DNA of 64,000 nt from Primulina eburnea (lineage: Eukaryota > Streptophyta > Magnoliopsida > Lamiales > Gesneriaceae): contig NC_133103.1 in assembly GCF_022965805.1 (NCBI RefSeq), positions 34,443,281 to 34,507,280 of the forward strand. The letters run 5' to 3'. Position 1 is the first letter of the stretch, and the number at the start of each line of letters is the position of its first letter. The notes under the pieces are model-generated. The model was not told where the DNA came from. It made no database searches and saw only the letters and a list, made by a program, of their open reading frames with translations. Below are positions 6,451 to 50,226 of the stretch, piece after piece. The position numbers were made by a program, and so were the translations under genes.

Positions 6451-8435
6451 TGTGGGGACCCGGGCTCTAATTCTTTTCTTTGGGATTAAAACGAATCATT
6501 AATATAAAAGTGGGTCAAATTTTTGCTTTTACATTAAATCAAATGAAAGCTAACATAAGAAGTCTCTATGTTATTCAACAACATATTATACAAACATAAG
6601 ATACAATATGTCTTGTTCTATCCATATTCGACAACTAGTAATTAAATACAGTACATGCCAAAAGTACAACTACTAGTTCTTCTGCTATGCCCGAGATCAC
6701 CACGCTATGTCCATCTCTCATCCTCTGCGTGACTCAGATCCTGCCCCACCTGTTGTTATGCACACATACAGACATAACAACAGCCGGAAAACCGGTGAGA
6801 ACAAATCCCAGTATAAACATGTATACATGCATATAATCAATTAAACATGAAACATGCTATCATGAATGACATCATATGCACATGCAATGCAATACGAATC
6901 AAAACATGTCTGGACTCGACTCGACTAGAACTCTAGGGATCCCGGTGTGAATAAGACGTCACTACCTACCCTCCAATCGGGGTAATGTACGTCTCATTCC
7001 TAGACTTCGGTCTGAGCTGTATCAACGGCGGCTATAAGAGTAATACCTACTCCTATGCTGAGATACACCGAAACGTCTAGCTATTTGACAATGCCTGTCA
7101 AAGACTCTCCTATCTTAGATGCAATGAATATCAATATGTAAACAACGTATAATCATATTCATATCTGAATATCACACTGATCATACATGCTTGAATACAA
7201 TTCTGAAATCAAAGCATAAACATGTTAAAAGATTGAATATAATGCTATACACAATTCATAAACATGTTACAATATATCTAATAATACTCGTATGTGATTT
7301 TGGTTGGGAAACTCAAATAATATCTTATTTGAGTTACATCTCCCCAAACAAAACATGACTTATACCTTCTTTTGTTAAACCTTTATCGATGTCGAGGTCT
7401 CGATGTCGAAGTGAGGTAAGATGAATCTGAAATGGAATGTTGATACACAATTTATCAATTACTAATCCAAATCAACACCTATCCACTCTCAATACTTGAT
7501 CTTGATACAATTTGACGGCATAACGACGTAATTCTCGACACCGGTCAAATCAATACAATATAATCAACACGAAACTATATCCTCAATTCATAATCATCAC
7601 AATATCCAAGTCAAGATCTCAAAATCTGCATATACTTCATTCTATACATGCTGAAAATCGTAATAATAGCATACGATATCCGTTCTTCGATCCGGTTGTA
7701 TTTCTACGGTGTCAATAACCACAAGAACACATTCTAAAGCTTAAACCATAATTCTCCCAACATATATATTTCAAAAAATGCTGGAATTGAAGAAAACTTA
7801 CATCACCTTGTAGCTAATAAAGAGAGGAGTTCAAAACCGAAGTCGGATTTGAATTTGGATGCTTAAATCTTACAAAAGCAAACTTTGAAAGTGAAAGAGA
7901 ATTTGGAAGCTTTCCTTCCTCTGAATTCTCGGACCTTCTGCTGAAACTGAAGCAAGAATCGAGACAATGCTATATATACTTTGCATGATTTGATACACAT
8001 GGCTCACCCTTTGAAGCACACGTCTCGCGCATATGCGCGGCATTACTCGCGCATGTGCGCCGAATCTACTGTCTCGGCAGATTTAGCACTCGCGCATATG
8101 CGCCACTAAACTCGTGCATATGCGCCAATGGTTCTGGACGCTCCGCGCATATGCGCCACTACTCTCGCGCATATGCGCCAAAGCTGCTGTACATGTCGCG
8201 CATATGCGCCACTCTTTCCGCGCATATGCGCCAATGCTACTGGAATTCTCATGCATATGCGCGCATTCCTTCGCGCATATGCGCCATAGCTTCGGCCTTA
8301 ATCATTCTTTTGACTATCTTTCACATCTTTATTATGCATTTCCCTTTCTTTTCTAGTCCAATGAAATACATCTACAATCATCTTAATTATCAACAAATCC
8401 ATCTGATTATGATAACTAAATCTTCGAGCCTTACA
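6451..8435 (-). repeat. 3' LTR of element A
   Basis: On the minus strand it runs from TGTAAGGCTC (at 8435) to GGTCCCCACA (at 6451). It contains the GCGCATATGCGC array (8025-8285) and a TATA-like box at 7971-7978. Confidence 0.95.
8025..8285 (-). promoter_or_regulatory. GCGCATATGCGC palindrome array (3' LTR of A)
   Basis: Ten near-perfect copies of the 12-bp palindrome GCGCATATGCGC, usually followed by CA, are spaced about 20-40 bp apart, about 45 bp upstream (minus strand) of TATATATA at 7971-7978. A perfect palindrome repeated ten times in a promoter suggests binding sites for a dimeric factor or a CpG methylation target; neither is shown by the sequence alone. Confidence 0.65.
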
Positions 8436-8451
8436 TTTCTCCCCCTCTAAG
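8436..8451 (-). other. Polypurine tract of A
   Basis: The minus strand reads CTTAGAGGGGGAGAAA directly before the 3' LTR, the expected plus-strand primer for reverse transcription. Confidence 0.85.
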
Positions 8452-8536
8452 ATATGATTTCGCCCTCGAAATCGCACATCATTCTATGAATGAAAGCATC
8501 AAAAGTAATAATATCAAAGTTAGATCAATACTTACA

Positions 8537-11500
8537 TTATTGAAATAATTCGGGGTGTTTCTGTCGCATGTTGGCTTCTGTTTCCCATGTCGCTTCCTCA
8601 ATGCCATGACGATTCCACTGAACTTTCACGAGTGGAATATTCTTCGTTCTGAGCTTCTTTTCTTTCCAATCAAGAATCTGTATCGGTTGTTCCATATAGC
8701 TCAGTGTCTGATCAAGTTCAGCTTCGTCAGGTTGAATGACATGAGAAATATCTGGCATATATCTTCGTAACATCGATACATGAAATACGTCATGTATTCC
8801 GGATAGAGAAGGAGGAAGTGCAAGTCGATAAGCTCGATCGCCAATCTTCTCAAGAATCTCGTAAGGACCAATGTATCGAGGAGATAGTTTCCCGCGTTTG
8901 CCAAATCGAACCACGCCTCTGAATGGAGAAATCTTTAAGAATACTCTATCTCCCGCCTCAAATACTAACGATCTACGTCTGATATTGGCATACTTTGCTT
9001 GTCGATCTTGTGCTGTCTTCATCCTCTTCTGAATGAGTTTCACCTTCTCTGTCATGTCACGAATCATATCTGGCCCAAGTTCTGGTACCTCTGAAACGTC
9101 ATCCCAGTATAGCGGAGATCTGCACTTCTTGCCATACAAAGCTTCAAACGGTGCCATCTCAATACTCGTCTGATAGCTATTATTGTAAGAGAATTCGCAA
9201 AGAGGTAGGGAATCTTGCCAACCAATGCCAAAATCTAGCACGACGGCTCTCAACATATCCTCTAATGTCTGGATAGTCCGTTCTGACTGTCCGTCTGTCT
9301 GAGGATGGTAAGCAGTACTCAGGTGTAATGTCGTACCTAAGGCCTGCTGTAAACTGTGCCAGAAGTGTGAAGTGAATCGTGGATCACGATCTGACACGAT
9401 AGACTTCGGCACTCCATGTAATCTGACTATCTCTCGAACATATATCTCCGCCATCTGATCGTGTCTGTAAGTCATTCGGTACGGGATGAAACAAGCTGAT
9501 TTGGTCAATCTGTCGATAACGACCCAAATCGCATCACAGCCTCGGGAAGATCGGGGTAACTTCGTCACAAAATCCATGGAAATGTGATCCCATTTCCATT
9601 CCGGAATAGACAAACTCTGAAGTAACCCTCCGGGCTTCTTCCTCTCGGCCTTCACCTGTTGGCAGTTCAAGCATTTAGACACATACTCTGCGATGTCTGA
9701 CTTCATCTGCTTCCACCAGAACTGGGTCTTCAGATCATTGTACATCTTCCTGCCACCAGGATGAATGCTGAACCGACTACAATGTGCCTCGGACATAATC
9801 TGATGCTTCAAATCTGAAACATCTGGCACAACAAGACGGTTATTGACGTACAAGATATGCTCACGCACCTGATATTCTGACAAATGCCCTGATCTGACCA
9901 TTTGAATTGATCTTTGTACATTCTGATCGGTCCTTTGTGCTTCTTTGATCCTCCTGATCACGTCCGGCTCAACTTGAATAGCAGCAAGCCGTAGTGGCCT
10001 CTTATCTGTATCAAATGCTAATCCCGAGAGACAGCAACTTTCAACTAACTTTGTAACACCTATCGTCGATAAGGACAAGGCACATACCTTTCGACTCAAG
10101 GCATCTGCTGCTGCGTTTGACTTCCCTGGATAATATTTGATTTCACAGTCAAAGTCTTTCAGAAGATCTAGCCATCTACGCTGTCTCATATTCAGTTCTG
10201 ATTGAGAGAATAGGTACTTTAGGCTTTTGTGATCGGAGAATATCTCAAATTTCTCGCCATAGAGATAATGACGCCAAATCTTTAATGCAAATACGATAGC
10301 CGCCAATTCCAGATCATGAATGGGGTATCGGATCTCGTGTGGCTTCAATTGTCTCGAGGCGTATGCGATCACATGGCCTCGCTGCATAAGAACACATCCC
10401 AAACCTCTATGAGAAGCATCACAATATACAACGAAATCATCCGTACCTGAGGGTATCGTCAGTACTGGAGCACTGGTCAGCCTTTTCTTCAACTCTAGAA
10501 AGCTAGACTCGCACTCCTCTGACCAAACAAATGGTGCATTCTTTTGCGTCAATTGAGTTATTGGCTTTGCAATACTGGAGAAATCTTTAATAAATCTTCT
10601 GTAGTATCCGGCTAAGCCCATGAAACTGCGTATTTCTGGTACAGAAGTCGGTCTCGACCAACTGATCACAGCTTCCACTTTACTCGGATCAACAGAAATA
10701 CCATCTCCAGAAATAATATGCCCCAAGAATACAACTCGGTTCAGCCAAAACTCACACTTTGACAATTTAGCATACAATCTCTCATTTCTCAGTGTCTGCA
10801 ACACAATCCTGAGATATTCTGCATGCTCATTCCTATTCTTCGAATACACCAAAATGTCATCAATGAAGACAATTACAAATTCATCTAAATACCTCTGATA
10901 CACTTGGTTCATCAAGCCCATAAATACCGCAGGAGCATTGGTTAAACCAAAAGGCATGACAATAAATTCGTAATGTCCATACCTGGTTCGAAATGCTGTC
11001 TTCGGTATATCTACATCTCGAACTCTGAGCTGATGATACCCGGAACGTAAATCAATCTTCGAATACACAGAGGATCCCTGCAACTGATCAAATAAATCAT
11101 CAATCCTAGGCAAATGATATTTATTCTTGATCGTTGCCTTGTTCAGTTGCCTATAATCTATACACAATCGCATCGAACCGTCTTTCTTCCGCACAAACAG
11201 CACCGGAGCGCCCCAAGGAGATACACTAGGTCTGATATATCCCTTGGCCAGAAGATCTTCTAATTGTGCTTTCAATTCTTTTAGTTCGATGGGTGCCATC
11301 CTATACGGAGCTCTCGAAATAGGGACGGTACCTGGTGTAAGATCAATACTAAAGTCTACCTCACGAACTGGAGGTAATCCTGGGATCTCATCTGGAAAAA
11401 TATCTGCAAATTCCCGTACTACTGGCAGATCCGCCAATGCCGGGCTCGACTTCTGCATATCTACAGCATAAATAAAGAAACCATCTGCTCCTCTTTGCAA

Positions 11501-13072
11501 TAACCTGTTCATAGTCAGAGCCGAAATCAAGGGAATCCGAGATCTGGAACCCTTCCCGTAGAATTTCCACTCGTCTGTCATCTCGGGTCTGAATCTGACA
11601 ATCTTATGGAAACAATCTACAGTGGCTCTGTACTTTGTTAGCATGTCAATACCGACTATACAATCAAAATCAGCTAGACCCAATACTATACAATCTAGGT
11701 CGATCTCATGCCCCTCAAACTGTAGAATGCAATGTCTAACCGTAGTTACAGATATCAATCCACTTCCTAACGGAGAAGTAATAGACACGACATCTAGTAA
11801 CGACTCAACAGGCAGAGAATGCAACAATGCAAATCGTTCTGATATGAATGTATGCGATGCACCCGTATCTATCAATATATAAGCAGGATAACCGCAAAGG
11901 AAACAGTTACCTGCAATGACATCATCTGGGGCATCCTGTGCTTGCTCTTCAGTCAAGGCAAACACCTGAGCCTGTTGTCTCTGAGGCTGACTCCCTGGCT
12001 GGCCACCTCTGGCTCAAGGCTGGGTCTGTGCTGGTGGCGGCTGAAATGAGTGAACAGATGAAGCTTGCCTCTCAGGCTGAGTCACGGAGGCAGACGATCC
12101 TGCAGCCTGAAATCTCGATGCACCACTCCTCTGAGGACAGACCTTGGCATAATGCCCCTGTTGTTTGCATACGTTACACCTTCCCACTACACCTTGACAT
12201 TGTTCTGTGGCATGCTTACCTCCACAAGTACTGCAATATCCACTTGCCACCTCTAGACTTTGGCCAAAACCTCTCTGTCTTGACCCGCTGGAGCTCGAAG
12301 AACTGCTCCCTGCCCTCTTAAACTGTTTACCCTTTGCTTTCAACTGATCTTTGCGTCCGCTACTGCTACCACCACTTTCGAGTCGAGGAGGATGTTGTGC
12401 TGGAGGTAGTGGCGGTCTTGGACTCGGAGCCACATACGGAGCACTCCGTTGCCTAAGCAATCCTGCTTCAGCTCCTTTGGCACGATTCAATGCATCCGAG
12501 AAATTATCGGGTCTCCCAGTATTAACCAACGTAAAGATATCTGGATTCAGGCCATTTATAAACTGATCTGCCATGGCCTCATCATTTCCTGAAACATGGG
12601 GTGCAAAACGAAGCAGAGAGGAAAATTTGGCAACGTACTCCTCAATGTTTAATTGCCCTTGCCTCAGATTGGCAAATTCAGCACCTTTATCTTTACGGTA
12701 GGAGATGGGAAAGAACCGTAAATAGAACTCCGTCTTGAATCCCTTCCAAGTAATCTAGGTACCCCGCTGCTCTAAAGCTCTTCTAATGTTCAACCACCAA
12801 TTCTTGGCTATATCTTGCAATTGATGGCCAATTAGCTTTATTCTCTTCTCGTCACTGTACTCCAAAGAGTCGAATAGCATTTCAATGTCCTCAAGCCAAC
12901 TTTCGCACTCGATGGCATTCTCGGTACCTTTTAAGGTGGGAGGTCGAAAGGATTGGAATCGCTTCAGCAACGTCTCCATAGGGGTCGCTGTAACATTCAT
13001 AGGATCTCCGGATGTGCTCCCCTGTTCTTGCGCTGCTGGTTGTAAAGGTACGGCTGCTCTTCTAGGAGGCAT
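8537..13072 (-). pseudogene. gag-pol: Gag-pol polyprotein of A, two nonsense codons
   Basis: One frame runs from ATG 13072 (MPPRRAAVPL) to the stop at 8537, 1511 codons, with in-frame stops at 12755-12757 (TAG, in gag after EQRGT) and 12014-12016 (TGA, in the linker before protease). Visible parts in order: gag with knuckles CSTCGGKHATEQC and CNVCKQQGHYAKVC; protease IDTGASHTF; reverse transcriptase with [11 protein letters not shown]; RNase H with [10 protein letters not shown] and SDHKSLKYL; integrase with an HHCC finger ([10 protein letters not shown]... CLNCQQ) and a DDE core ([26 protein letters not shown]); and a C-terminal chromodomain-like end ([19 protein letters not shown]) typical of Tekay chromoviruses, which helps target integration to chromatin. 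The long segment 11965-8537 is fully open. Readthrough or help in trans would be needed. Confidence 0.92.
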
Positions 13073-13305
13073 ATCTAATGAACCAACGGATTAGTAAACA
13101 AGATATACTACTGTCTCAGCCATCCTCTAGTCAGTTACCTCTGATCTAGAATCAGTTCTGATTCAGTTTATCACATGCTGAAAGAAATCAAATAACAACA
13201 ACATGTAATAAGGAAAGCAATAATCATGCTGGCACGTCATTAAGCAAGGAAGAAGACTCGATCTACCCCGCTCATTCTATCTTATCTTACTTTAAAGGAA
13301 CTATC

Positions 13306-13317
13306 GCTCTGATACCA
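13306..13317 (-). other. Primer-binding site of A
   Basis: The minus strand reads TGGTATCAGAGC (initiator tRNA-Met type), five bases from the inner LTR end at 13323. Confidence 0.9.
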
Positions 13318-13322
13318 CCTGT

Positions 13323-15307
13323 TGTGGGGACCCGGGCTCTAATTCTTTTCTTTGGGATTAAAACGAATCATTAATATAAAAGTGGGTCAAATTTTTGCTT
13401 TTACATTAAATCAAATGAAAGCTAACATAAGAAGTCTCTATGTTATTCAACAACATATTATACAAACATAAGATACAATATGTCTTGTTCTATCCATATT
13501 CGACAACTAGTAATTAAATACAGTACATGCCAAAAGTACAACTACTAGTTCTTCTGCTATGCCCGAGATCACCACGCTATGTCCATCTCTCATCCTATGC
13601 GTGACCCAGATCCTGCCCCACCTGTTGTTATGCACACATACAGACATAACAACAGCCGGAAAACCGGTGAGAACAAATCCCAGTATAAACATGTATACAT
13701 GCATATAATCAATTAAACATGAAACATGCTATCATGAATGACATCATATGCACATGCAATGCAATGCGAATCAAACCATGTCTGGACTCGACTCGACTAG
13801 AACTCTAGGGATCCCGGTGTGAATAAGACGTCACTACCTACCCTCCAATCGGGGTAATGTACGTCTCATTCCTAGACTTCGGTCTGAGCTGTATCAACGG
13901 CGGCAATAAGAGTAATACCTACTCCTATGCTGAGATACACCGAAACGTCTAGCTATTTGACAATGCCTGTCAAAGACTCTCCTATCTTAGATGCAATGAA
14001 TATCAATATGTAAACAACGTATAATCATATTCATATCTGAATATCACACTGATCATACATGCTTGAATACAATTCTGAAATCAAAGCATAAACATGTTAA
14101 AAGATTGAATATAATGCTATACACAATTCATAAACATGTTACAATATATCTAATAATACTCGTATGTGATTTTGGTTGGGAAACTCAAATAATATCTTAT
14201 TTGAGTTACATCTCCCCAAACAAAACATGACTTATACCTTCTTTTGTTAAACCTTTATCGATGTCGAGGTCTCGATGTCGAAGTGAGGTAAGATGAATCT
14301 GAAATGGAATGTTGATACACAATTTATCAATTACTAATCCAAATCAACACCTATCCACTCTCAATACTTGATCTTGATACAATTTGACGGCATAACGACG
14401 TAATTCTCGACACCGGTCAAATCAATACAATATAATCAACACGAAACTATATCCTCAATTCATAATCATCACAATATCCAAGTCAAGATCTCAAAATCTG
14501 CATATACTTCATTCTATACATGCTGAAAATCGTAATAATAGCATACGATATCCGTTCTTCGATCCGGTTGTATTTCTACGGTGTCAATAACCACAAGAAC
14601 ACATTCTAAAGCTTAAACCATAATTCTCCCAACATATATATTTCAAAACATGCTGGAATTGAAGAAAACTTACATCACCTTGTAGCTAATAAAGAGAGGA
14701 GTTCAAAACCGAAGTCGGATTTGAATTTGGATGCTTAAATCTTACAAAAGCAAACTTTGAAAGTGAAAGAGAATTTGGAAGCTTTCCCTCCTCTGAATTC
14801 TCGGACCTTCTGCTGAAACTGAAGCAAGAATCGAGACAATGCTATATATACTTTGCATGATTTGATACACATGGCTCACCCTTTGAAGCACACGTCTCGC
14901 GCATATGCGCGGCATTACTCGCGCATGTGCGCCGAATCTACTGTCTCGGCAGATTTAGCACTCGCGCATATGCGCCACTAAACTCGTGCATATGCGCCAA
15001 TGGTTCTGGACGCTCCGCGCATATGCGCCACTACTCTCGCGCATATGCGCCAAAGCTGCTGTACATGTCGCGCATATGCGCCACTCTTTCCGCGCATATG
15101 CGCCAATGCTACTGGAATTCTCATGCATATGCGCGCATTCCTTCGCGCATATGCGCCATAGCTTCGGCCTTACTCATTCTTTTGACTATCTTTCACATCT
15201 TTATTATGCATTTCCCTTTCTTTTCTAGTCCAATGAAATACATCTACAATCATCTTAATTATCAACAAATCCATCTGATTATGATAACTAAATCTTCGAG
15301 CCTTACA
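13323..15307 (-). repeat. 5' LTR of element A
   Basis: Same length as the left copy (1985 bp) with about eight substitutions by hand comparison. The palindrome array is at 14897-15157 with the same ten copies. Followed by the TSD GTATG (15308-15312). Confidence 0.95.
14897..15157 (-). promoter_or_regulatory. GCGCATATGCGC palindrome array (5' LTR of A)
   Basis: The same ten-copy array as at 8025-8285, here in the LTR that would drive the element, upstream of a TATATATA box at about 14843-14850. Confidence 0.65.
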
Positions 15308-15312: not shown

Positions 15313-15594
15313 TGTGCATGACAACAGGTGGGGCTGGATCGGGGTCAAGAGGATGAGGAGAGAAGAAGAGTTAGCGTGGTGATTCCGGACTTACTGTAGA
15401 TTTGGTTTATTACTTGAACGTAGTAACCGAACCTTAGACTTAGATTGTACAGTATTGTACTTTTATACTGAAATGTATTTTATACTGAGATGTATATTAT
15501 TTAGATTCCATTACCTTCCGCATTTACATTTTAAAAAGAAAAATTTTTAGACCCTGTTTATCAGAACTGATAATTAAATCCCTACGATGATTAA
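15313..15594 (+). repeat. E3 5' LTR, second segment
   Basis: Continues the E3 LTR after element A and matches about 35779-36052 of the 3' LTR. It ends with ATTAA (15590-15594), the TSD of the Athila insertion. Confidence 0.85.
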
Positions 15595-17164
15595 TGATAA
15601 ACATAAAAATTGTACATTAATTAAATGTTTTATAATATAAATATATAGTTTTTGTTTTATTAAATTTTTAAATATTATATGTTTTATAATAAATTGTATA
15701 AAATATAAGTTGTTGTGTAATTATAAGTTTTTACTATTTTTACAGGTTCGATAAAACAAGAATAACCTTGGCGTTGCAAATGGGATTAAGATGATTCTTG
15801 GACCTGTAGAAAGTTGATGTTAATATCTACAATATTGGTGGCAAGCATGAGATAAAAATCCTCTCACAATTGGGATCAAATTAAGCAACAATTAAAGTTA
15901 CCGAAGGAGTGGCAGTTTTACCATGCTCTAGTATTTTGACCATATCTCTCAAACTACTTGGTCAAATATTCTGAAAAAAATACCACAACTAGACAACTTA
16001 ATTATCCACATGTTTCATTTTATGTGAAGAAGAAAATTCGGAGAAGATGCTTGTCAAAAGTGATGTGCAATATAATATTAATTTCTTGGAACACCAATGA
16101 AGACTTATGTGTAAAAAATAATATTTTATTTGTGGTTGTCTCCCCAAATTTGGCTATAAATAGGGGTGCATTGTAATGTATTGAGATATCCCTCATTCTA
16201 TGAACAAATCTTTGAGTTCATAATATTTCTCTCTATATTTTTCTTTTATTTCTTCATTTAAATATAATTAGCATGTTAATTTCATATTCAAAGTTTTACA
16301 CTTTGAATAATGAATAGCTAACTTCCTAAAGTTGAGATGATAAGGTGAAGCTCTTGGCATGATAATAAGGTTATTATAAGGTAAGAATCTATGTTTTATA
16401 TTATTTAATCATTATTTATTGTTTATGTTATATTTATTTCTTTAAGCATTTTTATACCCTACTTATAAGTGGGAGTTTTGATTTATTGTTGCTATATGTT
16501 ACACTAAATTCTTGGAACCATTTAAATGTTAGTTTGGTATTACCAACCATTTAAAATGGATGCCTTGAGTTATTATATATAAATATATTATAATATTAAA
16601 TTCTTGGAACCATTTAAATGTTAGTTTGGTTTTACCAACCATTTAACTTGGATTCCTTGATTTATTATATATGAATATATTATAGTATTAATTTATTGGT
16701 ACCATTTAAATGTTTGTTTGGTTTTACCAACCATTTAAAGTGGGAACCTTGATTTAGTGTTTACAAATATATATAGCACAATAAATACTTGACCACATTT
16801 ATAAGTTTTGGTATATATTATGTACTTATAAGATTATAATTTATAACATAATATAAATATGATTATTTAATATATTGGAACCATTTTATTAAGTGGATTT
16901 CAATATTGTTCGTTAATGTTAACTTTATTAAAATACCAAGAGTGGATCCTTTAATCTCAACTACTAAAATTTAAATTTGAACAATTAAAATTTACCCATT
17001 AAAGATTCAATTAAAATTAAAAAGAAACAAAAACAAAAACAAAAAGACATTGTAGTGGACTTGTAATTACCTTAGCTTCCCTGTGGATACGATATTCGGA
17101 CTCACCGAATTATACTACTTGTGGACAACCTGCTCTTGGGAGTGCAACAATCAAAGTCGCAACA
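15595..17164 (+). repeat. 5' LTR of the Athila element
   Basis: TGATAAACAT to GTCGCAACA, 1570 bp, very AT-rich. It contains three imperfect tandem units around 16500-16760, built on ACCATTTAAATG.TAGTTTGG and related blocks. TATAAATAG at about 16155 could be the promoter box. Confidence 0.93.
16500..16760 (+). repeat. Tandem units in the Athila LTR
   Basis: About three imperfect 90-bp units, each with a TTGG(A/T)ACCATTTAAATG block, a GTTTGG.(A/T)TTACCAACC block and an ATATAAATATATTA-like tail. The same array is in the 3' LTR at about 25190-25450. The function is unknown; each unit contains a short inverted repeat of GGTT/AACC type. Confidence 0.6.
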
Positions 17165-17170
17165 AGTTTT

Positions 17171-17188
17171 TGGCGCCGTTGCCGGGGA
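17171..17188 (+). other. Primer-binding site (tRNA-Asp type)
   Basis: TGGCGCCGTTGCCGGGGA, six bases after the LTR, is the hallmark primer site of Athila/Tat elements. Confidence 0.9.
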
Positions 17189-17353
17189 AGTATAATTTAA
17201 TTTCAAGTCTATTTAATATTGTTTAAAGTTTATTTTTCTTTTTATTGCTTTTGTGTGTTTTTTTTTTTCTTTTTGTTTTGCATTTGCATGAGCATTTGGT
17301 CACGTACACTTAGTGGTCGGCTCATTCGAAATAACCCTTTATTTTTACAAAAC

Positions 17354-20300
17354 ATGGCGGAAGAACCCATCCAAGAAAATGAAGATGAAATTCAATCTCA
17401 ACATGATCATGATAGACGAAGAACACTTAGAGATCACATGAATCCTACACGTACTAGTGCACCTTCATGTCTAGTTTTTCCCCCTGATGCATCTCATTTC
17501 AATTTTAAGCCTGGTATTATCCAACTTTTACCCAACTTTCATGGCTTAGATTCTGAAAATCCATACATGCATTTACGAGAGTTTGAAGAAGTGTGCAACA
17601 CATATAATGATCTAAATTGTAGCATGAACACCATTCGCCTTAAGCTTTTTCCTTTTTCTTTAAAAGATAAAGCTAAAACTTGGCTACAAAATCTTAGATC
17701 GGGATCCATTCGAACTTGGGATGAATTGCAACAACAATTTTTGAAAAAGTTTTTTCCATCTCATAGAACAAATTCTTTCAAAAGGCAAATCATCACTTTC
17801 ACTCAAAAACAAGGAGAAACTTTTTATCAGTGTTGGGATAGATACAAAGAATTGCTTAATCTTTGTCCACATCATGGTTTTGAAATTTGGAGAGTTGTTT
17901 CTCAATTTTATGAAGGCTTAACACCTAAAGATAGGCAAATGGTTGAATTTATGTGTAATGGAACATTTGAAGATAAAGATCCGAACGAGGCAATTGAGTA
18001 TCTCGATTCATTAGCTGAAAATGCTCAAAATTGGGACACTATAGGTACAATCGAACCGTCAAACAAGATTCAATCTCCTACATCTGGTGGAGGTATGTAC
18101 ACTCTCAAAGATGAACATGATCTTCAAGCTAGATTTACCTCTTTGGCAAGAAAAGTTGAGGCACTTGAATTGAAAAAGAATGGTCAATTAAAATCTGTTC
18201 AAGAAATTGTGTGTCACATCTGTGATACAAGTGATCATTTTACAAAAGATTGTCCCACTTTGCCCTCTTTTAAAGAATGTCTCCATGAGCAAGCCAATAT
18301 TTTGAACAATTTCAAAAGGCCAAATTTTGAACCATTTTCTCAAAATTACAATCCAGGTTGGCGAAATCATCCAAATTTTAGTTGGAGGAATGATAATGCT
18401 GCACAATTTCCGCAACCACATTTTCAAAATCAACAAAATTTTCAAAATTATGCACCTTATGTTCCTCCGCCGAAAAGAAATTTGGAAGATACATTGAATT
18501 CTTTCATTGCAAAGCAAGAGTCTATCAATACTCAAACTGCTCAAACCATGACAGACTTGAAAGATACTCTTGCTAAATTTGCATCTGCACTTAATGTTCA
18601 TGAAAAAGGTAAATTTCCTTCACAACCTCTGCCTAATCCCAAGGATCATCATACACAAATTGGAACTTCTGGAACTCAACCGATGGATCAGGTAAAATCT
18701 GTTATTACCCTTCGAAGTGGTAAGGTTGTGGAAAAATCCATTCTTGAACCTTGTGAAGATGATGATAAATCAACTCCAAAGGGTAAGGAAGTGGAACCCA
18801 TAACTTGCGAAGAGGAGGTTCAACAGACAGTGTCACCACCATTCCCTCATGCATTGAAAAATACAAAAAAATCAAATTTGAATTCTGATATATATGATAT
18901 TTTTAAACAAGTAAAAGTTAATATTCCTTTATTAGATGCAATAAAACAGGTACCATCATATGCCAAATTTTTGAAAGACTTGTGCACTGTGAAAAGAAAA
19001 TTGAATGTGAAAAAGAAAGCATTTTTAGCCGAACAAGTAAGTGCAATCATTCAAAATAATAATGCTTTGAAATACAAAGACCCTGGTTGTCCTACTATTT
19101 CGTGTATTATTGGAGAACGAAAGATTAAAAAAGCCTTGCTTGACCTTGGAGCTAGTGTGAATTTACTTCCATATTCAGTTTATCAAGAACTCAATCTAGG
19201 CGAGTTAAAATCTACTTCGGTAACACTTTTACTTGCTGATAGATCTGTTAAAGTGCCAAGAGGTATGGTAGAAGACGTGTTGGTCCAAGTTGATAACTTT
19301 GTATATCCTGTCGATTTCATAGTTTTAGATACACAACCTATTGAAGCTTGTAATGCAATTCCTGTAATTTTAGGTCGTCCATTTTTAGCAACTTCTAATG
19401 CTCTTATAAATTGCAGGAATGGAATAATGAAGTTGTCATTTGGTAACATGACCTTGGAGCTCAATGTTTTTAATCTTTGTAAGCAACCACATGACAAAGG
19501 AGATGAAAGTGAAGATGAAAATCTTATTGAAACTCTTGTGGAAGAAAACATTCAAGAAGGGAGTACTCGTGATCAATTAGATATTTGTTCAATTGAAACT
19601 GTTAAAGAAAATATTGAAATTGATCTTGACGATTTTTTCAGGTATCACTCGTTACCAGGATCAGAGAAAGAATTTGATGAAAAATATGAGAACAAAGACG
19701 AACCACCAGTATTGGAGTTAAAACCCTTGCCAGAAGAATTGAAGTATGCATTTCTTGGAGAAGATGAAACATATCCGGTGGTAATTTCTTCCAAACTCTC
19801 AAGTAATCAAGAAGGTAAATTAGTTGATATGCTTAAAAGACATAAAAATGCAATTGGTTGGACACTAAAAGATCTTAAGGGCATTAATCCACTAATTTGC
19901 ACACACAAAATTCACTTAGAAGAAAATGCAAAAACATCTCAACAACCACAAAGGAGATTAAATCCACACATGAAAGATGTTGTGAAAACTGAAGTTCTCA
20001 AACTACTTGATGTTGGAATTATCTACCCTATTTCAGATAGTAAGTGGGTAAGCCCAACACAAGTAGTTCCAAAAAAATCTGGCATCACAGTGATAAAAAA
20101 TGAAAAAGGTGAATTGTTAACAAGTCGAGTCCCATCTAGTTGGCGGATGTGTATTGATTATAGAAAATTAAATGACGCCACTAGAAAAGATCATTTTCCA
20201 TTACCATTTTTGGATCAAATTTTAGAAAGAGTAGCAGGTCATCCCTACTACTGTTTTCTTGACGGATATTCAGGCTATTATCAAATTCCCATTGCACTCG

Positions 20301-21532
20301 AAGATCAAGAAAAAACTACATTCACATGTCCTTTTGGAACATTTGCATTCAGAAGGATGCCATTTGGTTTATGCAATGCCCCAGCAACATTTCAAAGATG
20401 TATGCTAAGCATTTTCTGCGACATGGTTGAAAATTGTTTGGAAATTTTTATGGATGATTTAACTGTTTTTGGGAATACATTTGATAATTGTCTTGAAAAT
20501 TTGGAAAAAGTTTTAAAAAGATGCGAGGAAAAAGGTCTTATTTTAAATTGGGAAAAATGTCATTACATGATTACTTCTGGAATTGTTTTGGGACATGTCG
20601 TGTCATCTCATGGAATTGAAGTCGATAAAGCAAAAGTTGATGTCATTGCCAATTTACCCCCTCCAAAAACCATTAAAGAAATTCGCTCATTTTTGGGACA
20701 TGCTGGATTTTATAGGAGGTTTATAAAGGACTTTAGTTTAATCTCTAAACCCATTTGTAACCTCTTAACAAAAGACAGTGCATTTGAGTGGACTCAAGAA
20801 TGTCAAAATGCTTTTGATAAAATCATTCGACATTTAACATCAGCTCCTATCATGCAACCTCCTGATTGGTCTTTACCATTTGAAATCATGTGCGATGCGA
20901 GTGATTATGCAGTCGGTGCAATATTGGGTCAAAGAAGAAACGGTAAGCCTTATGTGATATATTATGCAAGTAGAACTTTAAACAATGCTCAAATGAATTA
21001 CTCCACAACTGAAAAAGAGCTACTTGCTGTAATATTTGCATTAGATATATTTCGTTCTTATTTGATTGGATCAACAACTATCGTGTTTACTGATCATTCT
21101 GCTATTAGATATTTGTTGACCAAACAGGATGCAAAGCCACGACTGATACGATGGATTTTGTTGCTCCAAGAATTTGACATTGTAATCAAAGATAAAAAAG
21201 GAACCGAGAATGTCGTAGCCGATCATTTATCGAGACTAGTAACAGGATCATCTTTTGAAATGACACCAATTAACGATAATTTTCCTGATGAACATCTATT
21301 TTCAGTTACTACTACACCTTGGTTTGCTAACATAGTAAATTTTCTTGTGACAGGAAAAATGCCACCGCAATGGAGTTCCCAAGATAAAAGAAAATTTTTG
21401 AATGAGGTAAAAAACTTTTATTGGGATGATCCGTATCTGTTCAAGTATTGTCCGGATCAAATTTTTCGACGTTGCATACCCGACAATGAGGTTTTCTTAA
21501 TCTTTTTATTTTCCCGGTTAAATGGCGGATAA
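17354..21532 (+). CDS. gag-pol: Athila gag-pro-RT-RNase H polyprotein, no integrase
   Basis: I choose ATG 17354 (MAEEPIQENE) as start; an in-frame ATG at 17288 would add 22 residues. The frame is open for about 1392 residues. Gag occupies the first third (PDASHFNFKPGIIQLLPNFH, DWL-type core) with a zinc knuckle CHICDTSDHFTKDC near residue 286. Protease shows the Athila-type LLDLGASVNLLPYSVY near 594. RT has WRMCIDYRKLN, MPFGLCNAPATFQRCM and the catalytic FMDDLTVFG near 1030. RNase H has CDASDYAVGA and FTDHSAIRYLL up to about 1294. The integrase N-terminus starts (FLNEVKNFYWDDPYLFKYC, RRCIPDNEV) but the family sequence ends near 21490 and the frame closes 14 codons later, so the HHCC finger and DDE core are absent. 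The rest looks functional. Confidence 0.92.
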   Translation: MAEEPIQENEDEIQSQHDHDRRRTLRDHMNPTRTSAPSCLVFPPDASHFNFKPGIIQLLPNFHGLDSENPYMHLREFEEVCNTYNDLNCSMNTIRLKLFPFSLKDKAKTWLQNLRSGSIRTWDELQQQFLKKFFPSHRTNSFKRQIITFTQKQGETFYQCWDRYKELLNLCPHHGFEIWRVVSQFYEGLTPKDRQMVEFMCNGTFEDKDPNEAIEYLDSLAENAQNWDTIGTIEPSNKIQSPTSGGGMYTLKDEHDLQARFTSLARKVEALELKKNGQLKSVQEIVCHICDTSDHFTKDCPTLPSFKECLHEQANILNNFKRPNFEPFSQNYNPGWRNHPNFSWRNDNAAQFPQPHFQNQQNFQNYAPYVPPPKRNLEDTLNSFIAKQESINTQTAQTMTDLKDTLAKFASALNVHEKGKFPSQPLPNPKDHHTQIGTSGTQPMDQVKSVITLRSGKVVEKSILEPCEDDDKSTPKGKEVEPITCEEEVQQTVSPPFPHALKNTKKSNLNSDIYDIFKQVKVNIPLLDAIKQVPSYAKFLKDLCTVKRKLNVKKKAFLAEQVSAIIQNNNALKYKDPGCPTISCIIGERKIKKALLDLGASVNLLPYSVYQELNLGELKSTSVTLLLADRSVKVPRGMVEDVLVQVDNFVYPVDFIVLDTQPIEACNAIPVILGRPFLATSNALINCRNGIMKLSFGNMTLELNVFNLCKQPHDKGDESEDENLIETLVEENIQEGSTRDQLDICSIETVKENIEIDLDDFFRYHSLPGSEKEFDEKYENKDEPPVLELKPLPEELKYAFLGEDETYPVVISSKLSSNQEGKLVDMLKRHKNAIGWTLKDLKGINPLICTHKIHLEENAKTSQQPQRRLNPHMKDVVKTEVLKLLDVGIIYPISDSKWVSPTQVVPKKSGITVIKNEKGELLTSRVPSSWRMCIDYRKLNDATRKDHFPLPFLDQILERVAGHPYYCFLDGYSGYYQIPIALEDQEKTTFTCPFGTFAFRRMPFGLCNAPATFQRCMLSIFCDMVENCLEIFMDDLTVFGNTFDNCLENLEKVLKRCEEKGLILNWEKCHYMITSGIVLGHVVSSHGIEVDKAKVDVIANLPPPKTIKEIRSFLGHAGFYRRFIKDFSLISKPICNLLTKDSAFEWTQECQNAFDKIIRHLTSAPIMQPPDWSLPFEIMCDASDYAVGAILGQRRNGKPYVIYYASRTLNNAQMNYSTTEKELLAVIFALDIFRSYLIGSTTIVFTDHSAIRYLLTKQDAKPRLIRWILLLQEFDIVIKDKKGTENVVADHLSRLVTGSSFEMTPINDNFPDEHLFSVTTTPWFANIVNFLVTGKMPPQWSSQDKRKFLNEVKNFYWDDPYLFKYCPDQIFRRCIPDNEVFLIFLFSRLNGG

Positions 21533-21627
21533 CGGTACTCCGTGACTCTCATAGTCGGTTAAATCAGTTTCCCACAATTGCTGATACAAAAATTTAAAAA
21601 AAAAAAATCATTTCTTTTCTTTTCAAA
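21490..21627 (+). other. Junction/leader before the Cys-rich ORF
   Basis: Replaces the integrase. It contains CGGTTAAAT twice (about 21513 and 21555), a seven-codon mini-ORF (ATG at about 21519) and an A/T-rich run, then a pyrimidine stretch and ATGG in a favourable start context. It could be the remains of the acquired RNA's leader; nothing proves this. Confidence 0.4.
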
Positions 21628-22173
21628 ATGGATGAAATTCTCTCAAAAATTTGTAAATATTTTCCCTCTGTTTCTGAAAATGTTCTAAGAAAAATTTATG
21701 CAGGAAGGTGTGAAAGATTGAGATTACTAATGCAAAAAGGAATTCCAGAAGATATTCGTCTTGTAATAGAAGCTAAGGTCCGATTAGGAGGAGAAGTTCC
21801 ACAATCATTGCTTATTCGGTATTTGCCTGGATTAGGAAAAAGCACTTATGCGAAAAAACGAAGGGCCAAAAGTTTAGGGGTTTGTCATAAGTGTGCAAGA
21901 TGGACTTGTGACAAACGATGCAGATCTTTGGGATGTGTTTCCAATAACAGAGAAGATAAAATTGATTTCATTAAGAATGGGCTGAGTAAGGAGTCTTTAG
22001 ATAACATCTTATTGACTCTTGAGACGCATTCTAGTGGACATGTGCATATTGAACTTCTCCGTTTATGGAAACAATTTCAAGATGAGCGTCATAGTCTTGG
22101 GAATCTGACTAAAAAAGACCCTGTTTGCCAATTTATAAGAAAATTGGATGGGAAGCATATCCTCGACTCATAG
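21628..22173 (+). CDS. Virus-like Cys-rich nucleic-acid-binding protein
   Basis: An intact 181-residue ORF from ATG 21628 (context AAAATGG). The middle holds GKSTYAKKRRAKSLGVCHKC: a Ser-Thr-Tyr-Ala motif, a basic block (residues 76-81) and then cysteines at 86, 89, 94, 98 and 103, giving a CX2C...CX4C arrangement. This order (STYA, basic cluster, Cys finger) is what I know from the carlavirus nucleic-acid-binding protein family (Pfam Carla_C4), small proteins that bind RNA and DNA and in some viruses suppress RNA silencing or act in the nucleus. The viral proteins are usually shorter (about 100-130 residues); here there are about 65 extra N-terminal and 75 extra C-terminal residues that I do not recognise. 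No start-to-stop damage is visible. It could instead be a plant or element gene with a convergent motif. Its position suggests expression from the element's RNA. Confidence 0.6.
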   Translation: MDEILSKICKYFPSVSENVLRKIYAGRCERLRLLMQKGIPEDIRLVIEAKVRLGGEVPQSLLIRYLPGLGKSTYAKKRRAKSLGVCHKCARWTCDKRCRSLGCVSNNREDKIDFIKNGLSKESLDNILLTLETHSSGHVHIELLRLWKQFQDERHSLGNLTKKDPVCQFIRKLDGKHILDS

Positions 22174-22384
22174 AAGGCGTTGAAGCCGTTTCTGGACGTA
22201 AAACCAGAGGAAAATTGTGAGCCACAATCACACTACTGTTTATAAGCATGTGTGTCATTATTTTTTTACTATTTATTCTGTTTACAGCTGTGACCCATAG
22301 TTTTGTCATGATAACATATTACCCCTATAAAATCTCTCATCTTTCTTTCTACTTTCGCAGAAAAAAAAAAAGGAAAGTAAAAAC
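22174..22384 (+). promoter_or_regulatory. Spacer with TATA-like box and splice acceptor before LOG
   Basis: Contains CTATAAAATC at 22325-22334 and a strong acceptor-like tract TTTCTTTCTACTTTCGCAG (22342-22360), 24 bp before the LOG start. Athila env-like genes are thought to be expressed from spliced RNA, so the acceptor could join the LOG ORF to the element's leader; alternatively the TATA-like box gives an independent promoter. Both are inferences from motifs. Confidence 0.45.
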
Positions 22385-23023
22385 ATGACTGGATCCTCTG
22401 CACAAACATTGAAAAATATTTGTGTATTTTGTGGGTCGAGTCCTGGAAAAAATGAAGTGTTTGTAGAAGCAGCGAATAATCTTGGAAAGATATTGGCTGA
22501 GAGAAAAATTCACTTGGTATATGGGGGAGGTAATATTGGGTTAATGGGATCTGTTTCAACATCTGCTCATCTTGGAGGTAGTCAGGTATTGGGTATTATT
22601 CCTATAGCTTTAGCTGAAGGAAATATTACAGGTGTTACGATTGGGGAGGAATTAAAAGTTTCTTCTATGTATGAAAGAATCACTCAAATGATTGAAAATT
22701 CTGATGCTTTTATCGCACTACCAGGTGGTTTTGGTACATTAGAAGAAATTTTTCACACTGTTTCTTGGGCACAACTTAATATCCATAATAAACCCGTGGG
22801 CTTGTTGAATATCAATAATTATTATGACAGTTTGTTGACATTTCTTGATAAAGCTGTGGAACAGAATTTCATTTCAGAAAATTCACGACGGATGCTCATC
22901 TGTGCTTCGACTGCCGATCAATTAATTGATGATTTGGAAGCTTTTGTTCATAAGCCTGATCCGATGATAACAAAGATCAATTGGTCGCAATCAAGCAGTA
23001 AGAAAAGGAAGTTGGATCATTGA
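22385..23023 (+). CDS. LOG-like: LOG-type cytokinin-activating phosphoribohydrolase
   Basis: An intact, intron-free ORF of 212 residues inside the Athila element. LOG enzymes cleave cytokinin riboside 5'-monophosphates to release active cytokinin bases and ribose 5-phosphate, in cytosol and nucleus. Diagnostic motifs are present: ICVFCGSSPGK (12-22), the nucleotide-binding VYGGGNIGLMG (45-55), MYERITQM with the conserved Arg98, and LPGGFGTLEE (112-121), the PGGxGTxxE catalytic motif. The length is typical of plant LOGs (about 210-220). The tail ends SSSKKRKLDH, a possible nuclear localisation signal. Plant LOG genes normally have several introns, so the lack of introns points to capture from spliced RNA. 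It differs from classical LOGs at family positions (for example the RK after MHQ-like residues is RI here), so substrate use is not certain. Confidence 0.85.
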   Translation: MTGSSAQTLKNICVFCGSSPGKNEVFVEAANNLGKILAERKIHLVYGGGNIGLMGSVSTSAHLGGSQVLGIIPIALAEGNITGVTIGEELKVSSMYERITQMIENSDAFIALPGGFGTLEEIFHTVSWAQLNIHNKPVGLLNINNYYDSLLTFLDKAVEQNFISENSRRMLICASTADQLIDDLEAFVHKPDPMITKINWSQSSSKKRKLDH

Positions 23024-24268
23024 TTCAAAAGTCGTGGATTGGTTTGTGTTTGTTTCAGTTTGTTATCTTCAATAAAGTTCCAGGTGATATCTCTTTCATT
23101 ATGTACTCTTTATTAATAGCTATTTTGACATTAGGGACAATGTCATATTCTGATTGGGGGGAGAACACATATAAAAAAAAAAAAACAAATTTAAAAAAAA
23201 AATTAAATATTTTTTTAAAATAAAACCATGTTTATTGTTTGTACCTTAGTAATTTTTTGCAAAAATGTCATACATTACATATTTGAAAGATTTAAATTAG
23301 AACATGCATTAATCTATTTAAGAATGTTTAAATTTTATTTGAAAAAAGGTCATTTTTAATATTCTGATCAATATAAAAATATGATTTATGAAATCTTTTT
23401 GAGTGATTAACCATTGTGATAAAATTAGGTAGTAAAGTATATGGCCCAAGATATACCTTATAAGAGTGCCTAAAATTTTTGAACTCACACATATTTTGTG
23501 AGTGAGTGGAGAGGACTGAGAAAACAGCTTTCGAGCCTTTATTGATCATGAGAGAGACTATCTATTGTTTAGATCTTGAGTTCTTATTTTGAAAAAAAAA
23601 ATATATATTTCCTGAAAAAAAAAAAAAGAAAAAAAAAGAAAAATACAAAAAGAAAGATGTTGAAGATCTATGTAATTTTTAAGTTATATGCTGCGACCCA
23701 TTTTTCTCTCATAAGAATAAAAAAATAAAAAAAAAAATAAAAAAAAAAAAGAGAGAAATACATTGTACAAATTAAATAAATATGTGGTCAAAAAGCATAA
23801 ACTTAGTCTGATTCCATGATGTAAAAAAAAAAAAAAAAATCAGGAAAAAAAAAATATAATAAGAACACCTGGATTTTAAATCAATTGATTTTCTATCTTT
23901 TGATTAGTTTGGCTCGTTTGTCTGTCTGCATTCTGTAAACCATTTTTCTGAGCATTTATCTGTATTCCAACTCCATGAGAGAAATCGTTGCCATAAATTG
24001 AAACATTTATTAACCTGTGAGGATATGGAGTTGAGACTCTTACTAGGAATTTCTGAAGGCCGTGTACATTTAACTACCTAAAATAAGCTTTGAATTAATC
24101 ATCTCAAATTATTTCATAAATTATAATTATGATGATCTTGATATAACTTTGACAGTTTTCAAATTTTATTTAAACACTTAGATAGTTCTGATTACATTTC
24201 TATTTAAATTAATCAATATGTTTTGTATTGCTATTAACGCTTAAATTGCTAGGGACTAGCAATAAGCT
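23024..24268 (+). other. Low-complexity 3' region of the Athila element
   Basis: About 1.2 kb without a supported gene. It begins with a tract around GACAATGTCATATTCTGATT followed by GGGGGGAGAAC (23140-23165), a purine-rich feature commonly seen downstream of coding sequence in Athila/Tat elements. Many A-runs follow (23170-23880). Short ORFs here have no recognisable features. Confidence 0.6.
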
Positions 24269-24280
24269 GGTTGGGAGGTG
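24269..24280 (+). other. Polypurine tract of the Athila element
   Basis: GGTTGGGAGGTG directly precedes the 3' LTR start TGATAAAC. Confidence 0.75.
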
Positions 24281-25850
24281 TGATAAACATAAAAATTGTA
24301 CATTAATTAAATGTTTTATAATATAAATATATAGTTTTTGTTTTATTAAATTTTTAAATATTATATGTTTTATAATAAATTGTATAAAATATAAGTTGTT
24401 GTGTAATTATAAGTTTTTACTATTTTTACAGGTTCGATAAAACAAGAATAACCTTGGCGTTGCAAATGGGATTAAGATGATTCTTGGACCTGTAGAAAGT
24501 TGATGTTAATATCTACAATATTGGTGGCAAGCATGAGATAAAAATCCTCTCACAATTGGGATCAAATTAAGCAACAATTAAAGTTACCGAAGGAGTGGCA
24601 GTTTTACCATGCTCTAGTATTTTGACCATATCTCTCAAACTACTTGGTCAAATATTCTGAAAAAAATACCACAACTAGACAACTTAATTATCCACATGTT
24701 TCATTTTATGTGAAGAAGAAAATTCGGAGAAGATGCTTGTCAAAAGTGATGTGCAATATAATATTAATTTCTTGGAACACCAATGAAGACTTATGTGTAA
24801 AAAATAATATTTTATTTGTGGTTGTCTCCCCAAATTTGGCTATAAATAGGGGTGCATTGTAATGTATTGAGATATCCCTCATTCTATGAACAAATCTTTG
24901 AGTTCATAATATTTCTCTCTATATTTTTCTTTTATTTCTTCATTTAAATATAATTAGCATGTTAATTTCATATTCAAAGTTTTACACTTTGAATAATGAA
25001 TAGCTAACTTCCTAAAGTTGAGATGATAAGGTGAAGCTCTTGGCATGATAATAAGGTTATTATAAGGTAAGAATCTATGTTTTATATTATTTAATCATTA
25101 TTTATTGTTTATGTTATATTTATTTCTTTAAGCATTTTTATACCCTACTTATAAGTGGGAGTTTTGATTTATTGTTGCTATATGTTACACTAAATTCTTG
25201 GAACCATTTAAATGTTAGTTTGGTATTACCAACCATTTAAAATGGATGCCTTGAGTTATTATATATAAATATATTATAATATTAAATTCTTGGAACCATT
25301 TAAATGTTAGTTTGGTTTTACCAACCATTTAACTTGGATTCCTTGATTTATTATATATGAATATATTATAGTATTAATTTATTGGTACCATTTAAATGTT
25401 TGTTTGGTTTTACCAACCATTTAAAGTGGGAACCTTGATTTAGTGTTTACAAATATATATAGCACAATAAATACTTGACCACATTTATAAGTTTTGGTAT
25501 ATATTATGTACTTATAAGATTATAATTTATAACATAATATAAATATGATTATTTAATATATTGGAACCATTTTATTAAGTGGATTTCAATATTGTTCGTT
25601 AATGTTAACTTTATTAAAATACCAAGAGTGGATCCTTTAATCTCAACTACTTAAATTTAAATTTGAACAATTAAAATTTACCCATTAAAGATTCAATTAA
25701 AATTAAAAAGAAACAAAAACAAAAACAAAAAGACATTGTAGTGGACTTGTAATTACCTTAGCTTCCCTGTGGATACGATATTCGGACTCACCGAATTATA
25801 CTACTTGTGGACAACCTGCTCTTGGGAGTGCAACAATCAAAGTCGCAACA
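24281..25850 (+). repeat. 3' LTR of the Athila element
   Basis: 1570 bp, same length as the 5' copy. The only difference I noticed is ACTACTAAAATTT (5' copy) against ACTACTTAAATTT (3' copy). Followed by the TSD ATTAA (25851-25855). Confidence 0.93.
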
Positions 25851-25855
25851 ATTAA

Positions 25856-35450: not shown

Positions 35451-36080
35451 AGTCAGCATGGAGTCGAGTCTAGACATGATTTGACTAGAACAACATGTGT
35501 TTATGAATGTGGTTTCATAGACTATGAAACCCATGTTTATTGCTTTAAGTTATGATAGCATGTTATATGATTTGATTTAAATTGCATGTTTATCTGAATT
35601 GAATTGCATGCTTATTTTGATTTGATTTCATAGATTATGAAATCTATTATCTTTGAATATGTTTATGATAGCATGTTTTACGATTTAGATTGTTTCTATA
35701 CATGCTTACCATGTTTTATACTGGGATTTATTCTCACCGGAGTTATCCGGCTGTTGTCTTGTTTTGTATGTGTGCATGACAACAGGTGGGGCTGGATCGG
35801 GGTCAAGAGGATGAGGAGAGAAGAAGAGTTAGCGTGGTGATTCCGGACTTACTGTAGATTTGGTTTATTACTTGAACGTAGTAACCGAACCTTAGACTTA
35901 GATTGTACAGTATTGTACTTTTATACTGAAATGTATTTTATACTGAGATGTATATTATTTAGATTCCATTACCCTCCGCATTTACATTTTAAAAAGAAAA
36001 ATTTTTAGACCCTGTTTATCAGAACTGATAATTAAATCCCAACGATGATTAAGAAGATGATTAGCGTCCGGGTCCCCACA
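35451..36080 (+). repeat. E3 3' LTR, second part
   Basis: Resumes the E3 LTR after the insertion (AGAGTCAGCATGGAG onward) and ends GGGTCCCCACA. Closely matches 6133-6450 plus 15313-15594 of the 5' LTR. Confidence 0.88.
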
Positions 36081-36455: not shown

Positions 36456-37435
36456 GTTGACATTTCTATGGACGTTATTTTGGGGTTGCCTAGGACTAAG
36501 AAGGGGAGGGGTTATATTTTTGTTGTTGTGTATATATTCTCTAAGATGGCACATTTTATAGCTTGTCATAAAACCGATGATGCTTTAAACATTGAGGATT
36601 TGTTCTTTAGAGAAGTCGTTAGGTTGCATGGCATGCTTAGGACTATTGTTTCTAGTCGCGATGTTAAATTCTTGAGTTACTTTTGGAAGACTTTATAGGC
36701 TAAAACTTGGCACAAAATTGTTGTTTTTTACTACTTGTCATCCTCAAACGGATGGACAAACTGAAGTTGTCAATAGAACTTTGGGAACACTTTTGCGTGC
36801 TATTCTTAAAAAGAACTTGGATTGACATTTCTATGGATTTTATTTTGGGGTTGCCTAGGACTAAGAAGGGGAGGTATTCTATTTTTGTTGTTGTGGATAG
36901 ATTCTCTAAGATGGCACATTTTATAGCTTGTCAAAAAACGATGATGCTTCAAACATTGCGGATTTGTTCTTTAGAGAAGTCGTTAGGTTGCATTGCATGC
37001 CTAGGACTATTGTTTCTGGTCACGATGTTAAATTCTAGAGTTACTTTTGGAAGACTTTATGGGCTAAACTTGGCACAAAATTGTTGTTTTCTACTACTTG
37101 TCATCCTCAAACGGATGGACAAACTGAAGTTTTCAATAGAACTTTGGGAACACTTTTGCGTGCTATTCTTAAAAAGAACTTGGATTGACATTTCGATGGA
37201 CTTTATTTTAGGGTTCCCGAGGACTAAGAAGGGGAGTGATTCTATTTTTGTTGTTGTGGATAGATTCTCTAAGATGGCACATTTTATAGCTTGTCATAAA
37301 ACCGATGATGCTTCAAACATTGCGGATTTGTTTTTTAGAAAAGTCGTTAGACTATTGTTTCTGGTCGCGATGTTAAATTCTTGAGTTACTTTTGGAAGAC
37401 TTTATGGCATAAACTTGGCACAAAATTGTTGTTTT
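36456..37435 (+). repeat. 364-bp tandem repeat of an integrase fragment
   Basis: 2.7 head-to-tail units (36456-36820, 36821-37183, 37184-37435) of a gypsy integrase core piece, each running from [17 protein letters not shown] to [14 protein letters not shown]. Units carry DRFSKMAHF, a DDE-region segment and HPQTDGQTE, with different stops and frameshifts in each. They come from a gypsy family other than B/E3/E4/E5. The third unit is cut by the copia insertion. Confidence 0.85.
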
Positions 37436-39477: not shown

Positions 39478-39490
39478 ATCTCCCACTTGC
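39478..39490 (-). other. Polypurine tract of the copia element
   Basis: The minus strand reads GCAAGTGGGAGAT immediately before the LTR start TGTTAGAG. Confidence 0.8.
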
Positions 39491-40237
39491 AATAGAGCCA
39501 ACTACCCATATGCTTAAAACCCATTGATTCGCGATGCTTGTCGAATAATGGTCCAGGTAAAGGCCTAATTAGTGGATCAACAACATAATATGCGGAGCCG
39601 ACTTTGTCAATAGACACTTCTCTTCTTTCCACAATCTCTCCAAGGATGTGGTACTTTCTCAATACTAGTTTGGATTTCTGATGAGACCTTGGCTCCTTTG
39701 CTTGAGCTAAAGCTCCCGTGTTGTCACACAACAACGGGACAGGAGAAACTCCATTAGGAATGACGCCCAACTCTTGGACGAAATTCCTTATCCAAACAGC
39801 CTCCCTTGCTGCATCCGATGCAGCAATGTATTCGGCCTCTGTGCTGGAATCCGCAGTATTGTCTTGCTTGGAACTCTTCCAAGAGACAGCAGCACCATTG
39901 AGCATGAATACAAACCTAGAGGTTGACTTCGAGTCATCGATATCGTTTTGGAAGCTAGAGTCGGTATAGCCTTCCAATTTCAGTTCTCCACCCCATAGAC
40001 CAAGAACAATTTATTGGTCCTTCTCAACTACTTGAGGATGTCTTTCACAGCTTTCCAGTGTGGAAGACCAGGGTTCAATTGATATCCTTTCACCACACAT
40101 AGTGCAAACGCCACGTCAGGACGTGTAGATATCATTCCATACATGATATTACCAATTGCCGAAGCATACGGAATGCGTGTCATCGCCACTATCTCTGCAT
40201 CAGTCTTGGGAGACAGACTTGGATAAGGACACGCCAT
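39481..40237 (-). pseudogene. Copia RNase H, frameshifted
   Basis: 40237-40028 gives IPYASAIGNIMYGMISTRPDV, the end of RT and connection. After a break near 40000, 39977 downward gives [40 protein letters not shown] and [12 protein letters not shown], the copia RNase H. The open frame runs past its normal end into the LTR. Not functional as it stands. Confidence 0.85.
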
Positions 40238-44559: not shown

Positions 44560-44561
44560 CT

Positions 44562-50213: not shown

Positions 50214-50226
50214 ATTCTCCCCTCCT

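Follow-up and report, generated by a model that had tools for sequence, protein, structure and literature searches.

Additional open reading frames (ORFs) behind pol are well known in plant Gypsy retrotransposons, but for most of them little is known of role or origin (PMC7264820). Such ORFs have already been published (PMC9289625; PMC6317226). A YgdH (LOG) domain has been recorded in Gypsy elements of Citrus sinensis, C. clementina and Populus trichocarpa (PMC9289625, citing Steinbauerova et al. 2011), and Phalaenopsis Gypsy elements carry an AlkB-type m6A RNA demethylase with activity shown in vitro (PMC9289625). In the Athila/Calypso/Diaspora elements, gag-pol forms one ORF (Diaspora), a tRNA-Asp primer site is present (Diaspora and Calypso), and the region behind pol is env-like or lost; Populus Tpb1-1 was noted to hold an apparent retrogene (PMC1142308). 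An endogenous betaflexivirus replicase sequence is known in cucumber (PMC3136472). We analyzed a 64,000-nucleotide stretch of Primulina eburnea DNA (NC_133103.1, positions 34,443,281 to 34,507,280; hereafter the window), in which positions 15595–25850 form a Ty3/gypsy element, probably of the Athila type. This element is like those elements in its single gag-pol ORF, its primer site and the slot behind pol, but in the window the slot holds two intact ORFs, one for a cysteine-rich protein (CRP) of 181 aa and one for a LOG-family protein of 212 aa, and no env-like gene.

As a whole, the locus is best explained, with a probability of roughly 0.6, by an old Athila-type Ty3/gypsy lineage in eudicots that would keep a betaflexivirus-family CRP behind pol, many of its members probably adding an altered LOG-derived enzyme behind the CRP; the window would hold a recently inserted, integrase-less copy that needs integrase from another element to move. 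The element moved recently and as a unit. Its two 1570-bp long terminal repeats (LTRs; 15595–17164 and 24281–25850, plus strand, as are all features below unless noted) differ at one mismatch, an unstranded ATTAA target site duplication (TSD; 15590–15594 and 25851–25855) completes the LTRs-plus-TSD arrangement of Athila elements, and the repeat that the element inserted into has a further copy in the window that still shows the empty site, a single ATTAA at 36048–36052. One mismatch per 1570 bp means that the insertion is very young, presumably tens of thousands of years old at typical substitution rates. A first-pass annotation of this DNA had described an LTR retrotransposon with a TSD and a truncated pol, together with which two additional, intact ORFs had moved, and the LTRs, the ATTAA repeats and the empty site bear this out; its statement that the ORFs replace an env-like gene holds for the position behind pol, and is a matter of position only. 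The gag-pol open frame (17201–21532, with ATGs at 17288 and 17354) encodes gag, protease, reverse transcriptase and RNase H. Integrase is absent, and this copy must therefore have moved with integrase supplied from elsewhere.

The CRP ORF (21628–22173) belongs to a wide family. At E ≤ 1 a protein search found 322 relatives; the best 120 all have E ≤ 1.3e-59 and all carry PF01623, and named hosts among these 120 are Xanthoceras, Acer, Populus, Rhamnella and Orobanche, which include both rosids and asterids. The window CRP matches Carla_C4 at 31 bits, compared with a curated Pfam score of 20.9, over only 37 residues. In an alignment of 47 of 121 rows, Carla_C4 is found in 46 rows and Viral_NABP in 45, and Cys86, Cys89, Cys94 and Cys98 are invariant or at least 90% conserved. 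By these profile matches the CRP is placed with carlavirus/betaflexivirus CRPs, in agreement with the first-pass annotation. Like them, it has a zinc-finger-like Cys motif behind a basic stretch; it differs in being longer (181 aa) and encoded by LTR retrotransposons. In a BFVD structure search, nine of the top 11 matches are named; all nine are betaflexivirus proteins, seven of them called RNA silencing suppressors. By analogy with these proteins, we lean towards a CRP that would bind nucleic acid and blunt RNA silencing of the element. Two CRP relatives, P0071 and P0073, extend beyond the usual stop with a conserved FKPxLDVKPxEDVSHNHNY. Readthrough of the CRP stop was considered and dropped: these two proteins continue past the usual end, but the window frame is shifted there.

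Related DNA for comparison came from one contig, L002 (DAIEQH010000041.1, 3330 bp), found in a search of genome contigs. L002 is filed under a Candidatus Nomurabacteria bin, yet it is plainly a plant retrotransposon and thus contamination. It contains, in order, a complete integrase region, a conserved block TTTCCCGG..TGGCGGATAACGGTACTCCGTGACTC, a CRP ORF and the motif gaggacaatg..gttgggggg; relative to it, the junction of the missing integrase in the window lies at 21485–21510. Loss of integrase through a retro-copied spliced RNA was dropped as an explanation, because L002 has no AG at the far side of this junction. The L002 CRP is 72% identical to that of the window (130/180 residues). For this pair, the single DNA pair on which the estimate rests, CRP dN/dS is 0.20 over codons 1–155 and 0.25 over the whole ORF, and the CRP has diverged at about the pace of pol (identity of 92/124 residues across the RNase H-linker part of pol, whose synonymous sites are saturated). 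The CRP therefore travels with the element and is constrained; the dN/dS check suggested by the first-pass annotation thus came out in its favor, for the CRP only. In the Rhamnella relative P0082, an integrase C-terminus (70% identical to L002 over 111 aa) runs directly into the CRP. Searches of a viral contig collection with the CRP and of a plasmid collection for DNA relatives returned none, nor did an exact match to the conserved block turn up in the viral contigs. With the LOG, the viral collection gave only a distant match: the LOG-family protein encoded by contig L001 (IMGVR_UViG_2784746789_000006), which shares 45% identity with that of the window.

Constraint around the CRP also extends to the RNA level. 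In codons 156–181, the window and L002 agree at all 23 comparable codons, against 58/104 in codons 1–155 (0/20000 permutations); synonymous sites are frozen there, and the conserved stretch (22093–22231) continues beyond the stop. A non-coding block 5' of the CRP (21511–21576, 27 nt identical in L002) behaves similarly, and the DNA of both blocks is near-identical though the proteins are only 72% alike. Folding energies do not indicate a strong structure (z values: 5' block, 0.65 and 0.75; 123-nt 3' block, −0.54 and −2.30; shorter part of the 3' block, −0.84 and −1.80). A role of these blocks in packaging or in splicing control would be a guess.

The second ORF (22385–23023) encodes a protein with the LOG fold and PF03641. 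Its closest relative among the 120 listed is 98% identical, and named hosts among them are Xanthoceras, Diplodiscus, Reevesia, Populus and Primulina, again rosids and an asterid. Reevesia pubescens alone accounts for 28 of the 120, on 15 chromosomes, more than expected of a host LOG family, and in the Xanthoceras protein P0122 the LOG is joined to a gag-pol piece (E 1.7e-9). These 120 and the window LOG (121 in all) were compared with 120 canonical LOGs retrieved with a LOG3 query, a sample in which other LOG subfamilies are thin. In a tree of 112 rows, for which bootstrap values had not settled, 77 element-type LOGs (76 of the listed proteins and the window) group in a single clade (100/97, stem 0.59), with 33 of the 120 canonical LOGs and At5g11950 outside it. 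This fits one LOG capture, which would have been followed by a long life in elements.

The window LOG retains the PGGxGTxxE motif and the catalytic Arg99 and Glu122 (CgLOG numbering) as R98 and E121. In CgLOG, the prenyl pocket is proposed to comprise Met96, His97, Lys100, Glu125 and Trp129 (PMC4979012); the corresponding residues here are Met, Tyr, Ile (I99), His (H124) and Trp, so that the proposed set is not preserved. Lys100 and Glu125 are both replaced, Lys100 by a hydrophobic residue, in 115 of 118 element LOGs including the window's; P0122, P0123 and P0160, which are fused or doubled, stand outside these counts and all keep both residues. On a tree built without those columns, the two replacements occurred together, with one change each. 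Both catalytic residues are kept in 108 of the 115, and His97 in only 43. The C-terminal tail has changed as well: LxLxL is present in 99/121 element LOGs and a basic cluster (KKRKLDH in the window) in 101/121, each against 0/120 canonical LOGs. EAR repressor proteins are defined by LxLxL. Compared with canonical plant LOG1/LOG3, the element LOG thus shares the fold and the catalytic Arg and Glu but is without Lys100 or Glu125, forms its own clade, and has a basic tail and one uninterrupted ORF. It makes a clean natural experiment, in which the catalytic residues have stayed, two residues of the pocket were exchanged a single time, and the tail is new.

Judged from these residues, the LOG-like protein is quite probably an active phosphoribohydrolase; its substrate may well no longer be mainly the canonical cytokinin nucleotides, and with similar plausibility its basic tail would direct it to the nucleus. 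The LxLxL of most relatives, which the window copy does not share, could perhaps bind a TOPLESS-type co-repressor, a somewhat weaker prospect. The first-pass annotation had called the enzyme cytokinin-activating. The fold and the catalytic Arg and Glu agree with that name; two of five prenyl-pocket residues are replaced here and across the element LOGs, and a third, His97, is Tyr here. The pocket replacement and altered tail therefore make the term doubtful, and an altered, probably nuclear phosphoribohydrolase appears likelier than a cytokinin activator.

The LOG does not accompany every CRP. An internal motif 3' of the LOG (gacaatgt...gattgggggg, 23136–23161) comes directly after the CRP in L002 with no LOG between, and the LOG would thus occupy a slot left empty by other CRP elements. 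In a quick CRP tree with many weak forks, the neighbors of L002 are rows to which no LOG status is assigned. For the pair itself, two long contig sizes, 4511 and 8723, are common to a CRP and a LOG relative; jittered lengths give an expectation of 0.17 matches of this kind, and at least two occurred in 236/20000 jitter runs. Three further shared sizes must be coincidence, since contigs that short could not contain the two ORFs together, and they show how limited the test is. Equal-sized contigs and the width of both families indicate that the pair is not a one-off capture, the outcome that the first-pass annotation had named as refuting its reading.

How the LOG might be expressed is suggested by a 3' splice-site-like sequence (22341–22360), a pyrimidine tract followed by CAG. 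With a tract of at least 13/15 pyrimidines before NCAG, a threshold chosen after the site was seen, it is the only plus-strand site in the element; an acceptor of this kind fell in the last 40 nt of the spacer in 25/20000 shuffles. Its position 24 nt before the LOG ATG suggests a spliced mRNA, and we give production of the protein from such an mRNA about an even chance. L002 has one such plus-strand acceptor-like site, before its CRP. Across the 5' LTR and the leader there is a single strong donor-like site, AAG|GTAAGAA with its GT at 16381, and it lies in the LTR. The env-like mRNA of barley Bagy-2 is reported to be made by such splicing (PMC7264820).

The Citrus and Populus YgdH elements share with this locus a LOG-family domain inside a plant Gypsy element and probably belong to the same lineage; the passage describing them gives the domain only, with no CRP, pocket change, tail or order (PMC9289625). 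In the Phalaenopsis AlkB elements, too, a Gypsy lineage has retained an additional ORF for an enzyme, and AlkB domains also occur in Betaflexiviridae, but these elements differ in enzyme, in having one extra ORF, and in their orchid hosts. Our searches of open-access literature turned up no retrotransposon described as carrying a carlavirus-type CRP, and no account of the CRP-LOG pair, the exchanged pocket residues or the tail; the CRP may be described in subscription papers such as Steinbauerova et al. 2011. Both extra ORFs have clear families here. A CRP common to RNA viruses and retrotransposons makes gene exchange between the two testable.

A more specific proposal is that the ORFs form a two-gene counter-defence module of eudicot retrotransposons. 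The CRP would shield element RNA from silencing, and a host LOG would have become a new enzyme, its cytokinin pocket lost in one step, with a nuclear tail and, in most members, a TOPLESS-binding motif; the element might then act on a modified nucleotide and on host transcriptional repression at once. If CRPs have passed between retrotransposons and betaflexiviruses, two otherwise separate worlds of mobile elements would be connected. We regard this fuller scheme as speculative and rather unlikely in its entirety.

Several observations weigh against the lineage interpretation. The BFVD search gave weak matches (all above E 0.001; best E 0.011 with TM 0.21/0.26; TM range 0.16–0.29), obtained with a poor model (pLDDT 68.9). 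L002 has a CRP without a LOG, so the pair is not universal. A catalytic residue is lost in 7/118 element LOGs, the window LOG is without LxLxL, and the tail changed 12 times on the tree. Alanine changes of CgLOG AMP-binding residues mostly near-abolished activity (PMC4979012), and by analogy loss of Lys100 could leave a weak enzyme. The acceptor is not unique at a laxer threshold (four sites at ≥ 12/15), and the patterns used found no donor-like site in the leader.

Among the alternatives, the one with most weight is the reading of the first-pass annotation, in which cytokinin activation by the LOG-like protein persists and benefits the element through meristem cells. We consider this possible though doubtful: it has the retained catalytic residues on its side and must accommodate the hydrophobic residue at Lys100 and the replacement of Glu125 in nearly all element LOGs, the window's included, and the loss of His97 in most of these. 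That the relatives are instead ordinary host genes, lately copied by the element, would suit the fact that the contigs holding most of the listed relatives are short or lack annotation, but it sits poorly with the Reevesia copies on 15 chromosomes, the stem of 0.59 separating the element clade from canonical LOGs, and the fusions with integrase and gag-pol pieces; we judge it improbable. A one-off passive capture without function is less probable still and already contradicted. The window holds a single copy, whose near-identical LTRs make it too young to show constraint within the copy; against this stand close relatives of the two ORFs (P0001, 90%; P0003, 96%; P0121, 98%), the wide families, the CRP dN/dS of 0.20 and the CRP and LOG contigs of equal size. 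For a misassembly joining unrelated sequences we found nothing in favor; L002 matches the conserved blocks that flank the CRP, the LTRs, TSD and empty site agree, and the CRP-LOG order recurs by equal-sized contigs, leaving this the least probable alternative. An old lineage carrying a CRP and an altered LOG-derived enzyme thus remains the preferred explanation.

The remaining features of the element are a primer binding site (TGGCGCCGTTGCCGGGGA, 17171–17188), which we take to be of the tRNA-Asp type, and a polypurine tract (24269–24280). Each LTR holds three repeat units at 92-bp spacing (16413–16772 and 25099–25458). The ATHILA ORF-1 domain PF03078 was not among the Pfam matches of the element's three ORFs; it is not a required Athila feature, being present in 16% of Athila elements (PMC6317226). 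An archaeal-type RNase H, a Tat marker, was not found in a Pfam scan of the gag-pol frame, whose integrase side is deleted. A tRNA search of the window returned none, and an Rfam scan of the window gave nothing at gathering score, the remaining matches being far below cut-offs. Elsewhere in the window, another LTR element at 6451–15307, with 1985-bp repeats 99.6% identical (6451–8435 and 13323–15307), ends just before the repeat hit by the studied element, and two more direct-repeat pairs of about 2 kb, at 37435–46589 (99.1%) and 48194–56917 (98.6%), are probably LTRs of other elements.
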